A DNA stretch of 64,000 bases from the NCBI GenBank assembly GCA_949292785.1, contig CASFBK010000010.1, positions 105,403-169,402 of the forward strand, read 5' to 3'. The position numbers and the translations under genes were made by a program. Under the pieces are notes generated by a model. The model had not been told where the DNA came from, did no database searches, and worked only from the letters and a program-made list of their open reading frames with translations. Of the stretch, positions 60,959 to 64,000 are shown piece after piece. Every line of letters begins with the position of its first letter. Within the stretch, counting starts at the first letter, position 1. This DNA is from an uncultured Eubacteriales bacterium. GTDB taxonomy: Bacteria > Bacillota > Clostridia > Lachnospirales > Lachnospiraceae.

Positions 60959-61184
60959 GTATGATTTTTTCGAATTTTCGATTATGATAGAAAAGGTATT
61001 ATTTCTAGTCGAGTAAATAAAAAGTAAAAATATTATATTGGCAAAATGATATTTTTATGATATGATAAATGCAAGAAAGAACATATGTTCCTTTGACGCG
61101 AATATGGTTTTGAAAATAATGTAGTTCTAAAATATTTTGGATGAAAATACAAAGCTTATAAAAATTGTAGGAGAGATTACAAAA

Positions 61185-63203
61185 ATGAAAGTAATTAGCC
61201 TGTTTAGCGGATGTGGAGGACTTGATTTAGGCTTTGAAAGAGCAGGATTTGATATTCCGGTTGCAAATGAATTTGACAAAACAATATGGGCAACTTTTAA
61301 GGCAAATCACCCTAATACCCACCTTATTGAAGGTGATATTAGAAACTTAAGAAAAGAAGATATTGCAGAGTTTATTGAGGGAGAAGTAGATGGAATAATT
61401 GGTGGACCACCATGTCAGTCTTGGTCAGAGGCTGGTTCACTTAAAGGAATAGAAGATTCAAGAGGTCAATTGTTTTTTGATTATATTAGAATATTAAAAG
61501 AATTTCAACCGAAGTTTTTTTTGGCTGAGAATGTCAGTGGTATGTTGGCAAAAAGACACTCCGATGCGGTACAGAATATTTTGCAACTTTTTGAGGAGAA
61601 TGGGTATGATGTATCATTTACTATGGTAAATGCAAAAGACTATGGTGTTGCAGAAGAAAGAAAGCGAGTATTCTATATTGGTTTTAGACATGACCTGAAT
61701 ATAGATTTTGGATTTCCAAAAGGTTCTACAAAAGATGACAGTAAAAAAATAACTTTAAAAGATGTTATATGGGATTTGCAAGATACTGCAGTCCCAGCAG
61801 GTCCTAAAAACCATCATAATCCAGAAGCTATAAATAATAACGAATATTTTACAGGCGCATATTCTCCAATTTTTATGAGTAGAAATAGAGTTAAGTCATG
61901 GGATGAACAGGCATTTACAGTGCAGGCATCTGGCAGGCAGTGTCAATTACATCCGCAAGCACCAAAGATGGAGAAAGTTGGGAAAAATGATTGTCGTTTC
62001 GTTGAAGGTAAAGAAGATTTATATCGAAGAATGACAATAAGAGAGGTTGCAAGGGTTCAGGGATTTCCAGATGACTTTCAGTTCATTTATGAGGATACAA
62101 ATACTGCATATAAAATGATTGGGAATGCTGTCCCGGTAAATTTGGCATATGAAATAGCAAGTGCCATAAAAAAATATCTGGAGGGAAATGGAACAGAGGT
62201 TGAGGTAGATAGTGAAGTTATAGATGCGAAGGAGGTTAATAAAAGAAAAATGAGTACAAGGAGTAATGATCAGGGGCGGGCTTATGAATATGCATGGATT
62301 CAAACATTATACAAGGCATTACATAAATCGAGAAAAACACGTATCATTGAAAATTCTAGCCTGATTGCGAATGAACGTGCATGGTCAATTATGGATGAAG
62401 ATATGCAGAAAATATTTATGGTTTCAGCTAATGCTGCAATTGATGCTGTTTTAGAATTGGAACCCAAGTTATCTGAGAATGATGGAGATGAATTAACACT
62501 GGAATTTCAGAAAGATGGGGAAGGAATTAAGGGGGATGTAAGAGACATTGTAATTAAGAGAAAAGATATCAAATGGGAAATTGGTTTAAGTATTAAACAT
62601 AATCATGCTGCAGTTAAGCATAGTCGGCTTAGCTATAAATTGGATTTTGGGAAAGAATGGTTTGGAATACCGTGCAGTGATAGCTATTGGAGTGCAGTAG
62701 GACCAATTTTCGATATGCTTAAAGAGGAAAAGGCAAATGGCACCAGATGGTCAGAAATAGCGGACAAGAATCAAAGGGTATATATACCTTTATTGCAGGC
62801 GTTTATAGATGAGATTAATAGGGCAAATGAAAAAGATAAAGCAATGCCACGGAAGATGATAGAATATCTTATTGGTATTGAGGATTACTATAAGATTGTG
62901 AGCAAAGACAGCAAACAACTTACGCTGATTCATACATTTAATATGCACGGCACGTTAAATAAACCGAGTAAAGTTAAGGTGTCAGCAATCATGGTTCCGG
63001 TAGTGGAATTGCCTACGAGAATGGTAGCTTTGGAATTTAAGCCAGATAGTGAAAATACAGTTGAAATGTATCTCGACAATGGATGGCAGCTAAGTTTTAG
63101 AATCCATAGTGCTAAATCAACTGTTGAGCCAAGTCTCAAATTTGATGTTCAGTTTATTGGTATGCCGACTTCTGTATTGAATATTGAATGTAAATGGAAG
63201 TAA
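61185..63203 (+). CDS. HaeIII-like DNA cytosine-5 methyltransferase fused to a HaeIII-like restriction endonuclease
   Basis: 672 residues. About 1-330: C5 methyltransferase with motif [14 protein letters not shown], motif [12 protein letters not shown] (catalytic Cys77), motif VI AENVSGM, motif [15 protein letters not shown], a recognition region ([20 protein letters not shown]) and motifs IX-X ([32 protein letters not shown]). These match M.HaeIII as I recall it, so GGCC is predicted. Linker about 331-355 is Glu/Val-rich. About 356-672 resembles the HaeIII endonuclease family ([19 protein letters not shown]), with Asp454, Glu465 and Lys471 ([13 protein letters not shown]) as a possible catalytic set. 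AAGGAGG at 62229-62235 and ATG 62250 (Met356) fall in the linker. ATG 61185 (GGAGA, 10 nt) is preferred to TTG 61137. More AT-rich than neighbours, suggesting transfer. Confidence 0.9.
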
Positions 63204-63267: not shown

Positions 63268-63879
63268 TTACGTCATCAAAAAATTCAAAGACCCTGCAGG
63301 GTTTTCGGTACCTTTCTCAAGCAGGGAGATTAATCCCAGTATCGTTTCCTGAATTTCCTCCGGTGTAGAAGGAATCAAGGTATTATCCAATTTTACCGCA
63401 AGTACAATCAATACAATTTCTGCTAAGGCGGCAGGATGGTCGAAGTGAATATCACCATTTTCAATTCCCTGTTTGATAATCTCAGTTAGTGCAGGCTTTA
63501 ACTCCGTCACCAGATGATTCAGATATTTCTGATGCAGCAATGAATTTTCCTGAGCGTTGGGCGGTACGGAGACACTTCTGTGACTGTGGAATTCCAGAGA
63601 AGAATTTCGGCAAGCCTGAAAAATCATTGCCATACGCATAAAAGGAGAAATTTCTGTCTGAATTGCAAGGCTTTTAGCGGTCTCGATAGGCTTTTCATAA
63701 TTTCGTTCTATCAATGCTTCTAAAATAGCATCTTTGGAAGGAAAGTAATAGTAGATGCTTCCCTTTCCAATGCCCGCAGTTTTTGCAATTTCGCTGACGG
63801 AAATGGATTCTATATCTTTTGTTTCTAATAATTCCTGAAGAGAGTCCAGAATTTTATCATATTTTATATGGTTTCCCAT
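63268..63879 (-). CDS. TetR family transcriptional regulator
   Basis: 203 residues. N-terminal helix-turn-helix: LQELLETKDIESISVSEIAK, AGIGKGSIYYYFPSKDAILE (the TetR signature), and a helical ligand domain. The ATG at 63879 has a perfect AGGAGG; the frame is open 32 codons further, but that part is a translation of the dispersed repeat (reading AFGYGCFDRANAR) and is not expected to be made. Its own target is probably the gene beyond the right edge. Confidence 0.88.
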   Translation of the reverse strand: MGNHIKYDKILDSLQELLETKDIESISVSEIAKTAGIGKGSIYYYFPSKDAILEALIERNYEKPIETAKSLAIQTEISPFMRMAMIFQACRNSSLEFHSHRSVSVPPNAQENSLLHQKYLNHLVTELKPALTEIIKQGIENGDIHFDHPAALAEIVLIVLAVKLDNTLIPSTPEEIQETILGLISLLEKGTENPAGSLNFLMT

Positions 63880-63894
63880 GATGTTATCCTCCTG

Positions 63895-64000
63895 ATTGCG
63901 AGCATTCGCCCTATCAAAACAGCCATAGCCAAATGCTCCAGCGGGCTGTCGATTTGTCTCTGTCAGTTTTGGCATATGTGTTGTAGTCCGCAGTGCCCGC
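63895..64000 (-). repeat. Dispersed intergenic repeat, second copy
   Basis: On the minus strand: GCACTGCGGACT (63985-63996), GACAGC (63945-63950) and TGATAGGGCGAATGC (63902-63916), each also present in the aroE-aroD spacer (2795-2930) but in a different order. It runs to the window edge and may continue beyond. Confidence 0.65.

Follow-up and report, generated by a model that had tools for sequence, protein, structure and literature searches.

The 64,000-nucleotide stretch of DNA analyzed here (the window) carries on its forward strand, at positions 61185..63203, a single open frame of 672 amino acids plus a stop codon that encodes a fused methylase–nuclease (M–R) protein, with both Pfam domains at full length. 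In the assembly sequence neither a stop nor a frameshift separates the two domains, and the coordinates given in an earlier note on this DNA, which had described a single-polypeptide restriction-modification system of the HaeIII type, are right. The frame begins at ATG 61185, which pairs with residue 1 of M.HaeIII in the alignment; a Shine-Dalgarno-like AGGAG, read in the sequence at 61169..61173 (+ strand), lies 11 nt before it. An in-frame TTG further upstream, at 61137, would add 16 residues and has no evident Shine-Dalgarno sequence.

The N-terminal portion of the protein, residues 1–330 (61185..62174, + strand), is a C5-cytosine methylase domain resembling M.HaeIII. Its match to PF00145 covers profile positions 1–324 of 324 (E 4.6e-103), and its alignment with M.HaeIII (PDB 1dct, E 5.5e-131) runs from end to end, with 208 of 320 aligned residues identical (65%). 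The half contains GGPPCQSW and AENV, in which we take PCQ and ENV to be the catalytic motifs, and is thus a C5 methylase of the HaeIII type; in residues 226–282, about the extent of what is presumably the target-recognition region, 45 of 57 residues are identical to M.HaeIII (79%). Because of the end-to-end alignment and the identity in the recognition region, GGCC is well supported as the target of the methylase. A linker of residues 331–355 (62175..62249, + strand), which includes an IDAKEV stretch, runs from the methylase domain to the internal start described below, and is followed by the HaeIII-family nuclease part (62250..63203, + strand; 317 aa if counted from the internal start). There PF09556 (RE_HaeIII) matches residues 364–661 over profile positions 1–298 of 298 (E 2e-143), scoring 477 bits against a curated cut-off of 25 and placing the domain in the family. 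The two complete domains that the earlier note had read from the letters, a C5 methylase with a HaeIII-like recognition region and, downstream in the same frame within residues 356-672, a HaeIII-family endonuclease, are therefore both borne out by the profiles. The nuclease would also be expected to act at GGCC, judging by its family and its partner methylase, and we regard 61185–63203 as confirmed as a natural HaeIII-type methylase–nuclease fusion with GGCC as its predicted site.

Structure models add to this picture. The model of the nuclease part has a pLDDT of 94.9, and its best solved match among the folds compared is HinP1I, which scores above unrelated rows. The whole-chain model of the fusion has a mean pLDDT of 73.7 and a pTM of 0.48, with values below 50 in the recognition region (17 rows) and at residues 345–358, too low for contacts between the domains to be read from it. 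Among the best 60 of 84 matches in a sequence search of the PDB, every best stretch fell in the methylase half and none in the nuclease half.

The fused gene is flanked by a GGGtGRT gene (PF14057, 59837–60847) and by a TetR-type gene that is convergent with it (63268–63975, minus strand). In a second genome of the genus, G026, the GGGtGRT and TetR-type genes are adjacent, with 73 bp between the matched stretches, and that genome's own fusion lies at a different place (3.31 Mb); either the window's genome thus gained the gene here by itself, or G026 lost it from this site. A separate promoter for the nuclease was considered and rejected: among the promoter-like sites listed, none falls on the + strand from 61610 to 62318, and the seven sites of the region are fewer than the shuffle mean of 10.0. 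Carriage by phages or plasmids was considered and rejected: among 50,697 phage records only one weak match (23.7% identity) to the nuclease half was obtained, and 6 of 72,556 plasmid records match it, whole-protein searches of both being swamped by methylases, and none of ten relatives on viral contigs was classed as fused.

The earlier note had contrasted the fusion with the classical system of separate genes, and in the loci compared the two-gene form is the commoner one: among 84 distinct loci on a quick tree (with methylases sharing 55% or more identity with that of the window), 60 are split and 24 fused. A search for the same fusion in other genomes, which the note had proposed, yielded 32 fused loci, a tally that leaves out four further views of the same places and in which L008 ends at a contig end; counting that of the window, these loci comprise 27 distinct coding sequences. 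Within overlapping samples at four taxonomic levels, PF09556 occurs in 14 of 392 genomes of the order (four frames of 654–696 aa, the fused size, and ten of 314–343 aa), 9 of 397 of the family (ten matches: six frames of 681–758 aa, three of 337–352 aa and one fragment), 5 of 29 of the genus (frames of 639–710 aa in four, with a contig end truncating one) and 5 of 398 of the phylum, where the only frame of fused size is that of the window. Of the 496 relatives that a scan of named genomes brought up, the best 80 were kept, so that the fusion frequencies there are biased towards the window.

Most of these relatives are metagenome-assembled, and with so many of that kind the fusion might be suspected of being a sequencing or assembly artefact, or the nuclease of having decayed and been kept only as a tail. 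However, the same in-frame fusion is found in the single-contig genome G026, where it is 85% identical to the window's, in another single-contig genome (G413), and, with a longer linker, in a named strain of Mediterraneibacter glycyrrhizinilyticus. Moreover, dN/dS ratios of 0.016–0.117 across both halves in six pairs (0.017–0.117 for the nuclease half alone) indicate purifying selection. This recurrence, together with the low dN/dS, largely contradicts an artefact or a dead nuclease; we reject both and give them next to no likelihood.

On the tree the label of fused or split changes at least eight times, five of the changes being forced by starred branches, and the direction of the changes is not given by the tree. 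One starred set comprises 15 rows, 14 of them fused. The split relatives that were classed carry the methylase gene first and the nuclease gene downstream of it, the same order as in the fusion, and in many of them the nuclease start is only a few bases from the methylase stop, often overlapping it. Several relatives stand out individually. In M. glycyrrhizinilyticus (L026/L057) a long linker insert follows directly after the old nuclease start (CTG), and this lineage is perhaps committed to the fused form. A distant fused pair, L006 (G011) and L008 (G016), is about 35% identical to the window's protein in the methylase and about 31% in the nuclease, has no usual start codon at the junction, and may differ in recognition site. 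Additionally, one metagenome-assembled genome (MAG RUG13174 bin) carries two different fused HaeIII-type genes, L040 and L041.

Within the fused frame of the window, the region just before the nuclease part contains what appears to be a second translation start. A putative Shine-Dalgarno sequence, AAGGAGGT (62229..62236, + strand), is indicated by the sequence itself, by the ranks of its AAG and GAG codons and by an unstructured surrounding; the gap from AAGGAGG to ATG 62250 is 14 nt, longer than the usual spacing. This ATG (62250..62252, + strand), which encodes Met356, is the predicted start of a free nuclease and aligns with the nuclease starts of split relatives: of the 60 split loci on the tree, 55 have ATG (53), GTG or TTG at exactly the equivalent position; in four of the remaining five an ATG stands one codon further on, and the fifth (L121) carries a frameshift at this point. 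At the same position (hereafter the R-start) the 27 fusions have ATG in 11, GTG in 10, CTG in two and other codons in four, so that 21 of 27 have ATG or GTG. The four others are ATA in L053, AAA in L017, and ATT or CGG, by alignment, in L006 and L008; the CTG of L026 is placed by the multiple alignment only, with a long insert following, and pairwise projection gives GGA.

A valine serving only as a linker residue would be expected to use any of its four codons. Among the 24 closer fusions, valine at the R-start is GTG in 10 of 10 cases, compared with 183 of 1045 other valine codons, and the R-start is the only all-GTG column among 50 that have at least eight valines. In one fused clade of 14 sequences (R-start codons GTG in nine, ATG in three and CTG in two), it is likewise the only single-codon column among 28 valine columns, and the five pairs tested from this clade have dS values of about 0.9–2.4. 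All columns in the comparison come from one set of sequences on one tree, so relatedness alone does not account for the outlier. Similarly, the 14 sequences with Lys-Glu at the Shine-Dalgarno position encode it as AAG GAG in 11, AAG GAA in one and AAA GAA in two, and the use of AAG ranks first of 19 invariant lysine columns and that of GAG first of 22 invariant glutamate columns. Two fusions (L052 and L063) have lost AAGGAG synonymously (AAAGAA) and kept the GTG. The initiation region is also little structured, at the 99th percentile of its own coding sequence in the window and at the 56th–100th percentile over 13 of the 14 Lys-Glu sequences (L026 left out), a feature that may be partly due to the Lys-rich linker.

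These codon comparisons show the fusion to keep an apparent internal start at the nucleotide level, conserved codon by codon. Because both the start codon and the Shine-Dalgarno sequence of the nuclease gene are conserved in this way, free nuclease is probably also made, in addition to the M–R chain. This makes doubtful the earlier note's statement that a fusion renders methylation and cutting stoichiometric; among the ways it listed in which the host could solve the timing problem, the internal start is the one for which there is evidence. A contrary reading holds that the M–R chain is the only product and does all of the work, the start-like codon and Shine-Dalgarno sequence being ancestral leftovers. 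A usual start codon is missing here from the fusions L017, L006, L008, L053 and, with its long insert, L026; a fusion can thus apparently dispense with one, and a pure fusion is perhaps viable in other lineages. In addition, both activities are present in RM.Eco29kI, a fusion made artificially (PMC3039593, in extract). Against this, a leftover is unlikely to stay GTG in nine of nine valine-bearing members of the clade (one of 28 valine columns) with synonymous sites near saturation, or to keep AAG GAG in 11 of 14 sequences, and we consider a fusion without internal initiation unlikely for the window's gene.

A natural one-base comparison is provided by Brotaphodocola catenula (L046), whose genes are split, yet nested inside a fused clade (a starred set of 14 rows, 13 of them fused). 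Compared with six aligned fused junctions, its junction lacks one base after AAGGAGGTT, besides substitutions, and its methylase ends in a TGA that overlaps the GTG of the nuclease. No ATG, GTG or TTG occurs from the preceding in-frame stop to this GTG, and the next start-type codon lies 16 codons into the nuclease domain; the nuclease must therefore start either at the position conserved in the fusions or inside the domain. In our view this locus is the strongest individual argument for the hidden start being genuine and, given the nesting, re-splitting is the simplest reading of its history.

The same observations could be taken further, with the locus being effectively two genes in which the nuclease from the internal start is the sole working cutter and the nuclease part of the M–R chain an inert tail. 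Such an arrangement fits the conservation of the internal start and also L046, where a single base separates two reading frames that are otherwise uninterrupted. It is harder to reconcile with a fused state that is kept (14 of 15 rows of the starred set) and recurrent (at least five forced changes), and so at least tolerated, with the existence of fusions that have no internal start, and with a nuclease part that is mostly confident in the fusion model. An inert tail is, in our judgment, improbable.

Site frequencies in the host genomes were also compared. The observed/expected ratio of GGCC is 0.15 in the window's genome (G000, 400 kb sampled), and in a first comparison G000 and G026 (0.28) stood against 0.40–0.71 in four genus members lacking the gene. 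In a wider comparison, based on 17–400 kb per genome and leaving out G003 (two stretches, 1.2 kb), G007 and G009, G000 comes third and G026 eighth among 26 genus members. Five members (G015, G006, G004, G005, and G018) have no PF09556 match, yet have GGCC ratios of 0.12–0.26; GGCC avoidance was therefore rejected as proof of activity, some gene-less members having equal or nearly equal ratios. GGTC is a product of deaminated methyl-GGCC, and its ratio in G000, 0.93, is the second highest (G016, 0.97), which is suggestive only. G015, one of the members without PF09556 and at 0.12 for GGCC, contains a short methylase remnant with a stop (G015:C69:969-1136), 73% identical to residues 281–336 of the window's protein, and is possibly a former owner of the system. 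In G000, GATC is scarcer still than GGCC (0.06 vs. 0.15, 400 kb sampled); no DpnII-family nuclease was found in this genome, which has one D12-class adenine methylase, at G000:C23:332-1003.

In Type II systems methylation must precede cutting. Our preferred explanation, to which we assign a probability of about 0.6, is a natural Type IIC-like M–R gene from which internal initiation would additionally give free nuclease. The gene would probably have originated from an overlapping pair, methylase then nuclease, when an indel put the two frames in register. Its main product would be the 672-aa M–R protein from ATG 61185, while the ribosome-binding site and start of the old nuclease gene would still be used to make a free nuclease of 317 aa (about 36 kDa) from ATG 62250. 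We infer that both halves would be active and specific for GGCC. Methylase would be made on every full pass of a ribosome, whereas free nuclease would rely on a widely spaced Shine-Dalgarno sequence and, in many relatives, also on a GTG start, which could give the methylase a head start when the gene enters a new host. Furthermore, if the nuclease must oligomerize to cut, a low concentration of the M–R protein would at first be methylase-positive and nuclease-poor. According to the argument of a review, there is a concentration range that Type IIC chains traverse as monomers with methylase activity only, and internal initiation in mcrB provides a precedent in a restriction gene (PMC12707154, in extract); both ideas would help here. 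A more elaborate possibility, which we hold only tentatively, is a dual-product switch, in which the M–R chain and the free nuclease subunit would pair or compete, the ratio of the products would time restriction, and single-base indels at the junction would let lineages switch from the fused form to two genes or back.

When a C5 methylase and a HaeIII-type nuclease are naturally fused, the customary means of control, separate promoters and C proteins, are lost, but the arrangement is recurrent and persists. How one frame could still yield unequal amounts of two activities is suggested by the conservation of the internal start, and annotation of such genes as single bifunctional enzymes may miss the free nuclease; the one-base comparison of fused and split forms is ready for experiment. 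Single-chain restriction-modification enzymes are known. Our searches of open-licence papers in PMC found no description of a natural HaeIII-type fusion with the C5 methylase first and a conserved internal start, and within their reach such an arrangement appears to be undescribed.

Like Type IIC enzymes such as Eco57I, MmeI, and BtgZI (PMC4081073, in extract), the window's gene joins endonuclease and methylase domains in one reading frame and one chain. The canonical Type IIC/IIG definition is of an N-terminal PD-D/EXK nuclease followed by a gamma-class methylase, an order and class found in most Type IIC enzymes, and BtgZI has an N-terminal alpha-class methylase (PMC4081073, in extract). The gene described here departs from that architecture, with a C5 methylase at the N terminus and a HaeIII-type nuclease at the C terminus. 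The long and short forms of McrB, in which internal initiation gives a C-terminal product that tunes restriction (PMC12707154, in extract), resemble what is proposed here. Unlike the window's gene, McrB belongs to a modification-dependent GTPase system, and the proteins are unrelated.

M.Eco29kI is a C5 methylase. The artificial RM.Eco29kI likewise combines a Type IIP methylase and nuclease in one chain, but is engineered, with the nuclease first and of the GIY-YIG family; its nuclease activity is three-fold lower and its phage protection 100-fold weaker than those of the wild type (PMC3039593, in extract). The same 2011 work foresaw natural derivatives and named HaeIII among the head-to-tail pairs that are candidates for fusion (PMC3039593, in extract). 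EcoKI remains functional when its M and S subunits are joined by the removal of a frameshift (PMC3510504, in extract). Also among the closest known systems is the HaeIII system, with which the window's gene shares two domains that are full-length members of their families; the order, methylase before nuclease, is likewise that of the split relatives classed. The Type IIP HaeIII system is encoded by two genes in separate frames, whereas here a single open frame specifies one polypeptide with a 25-residue linker and a predicted internal start.
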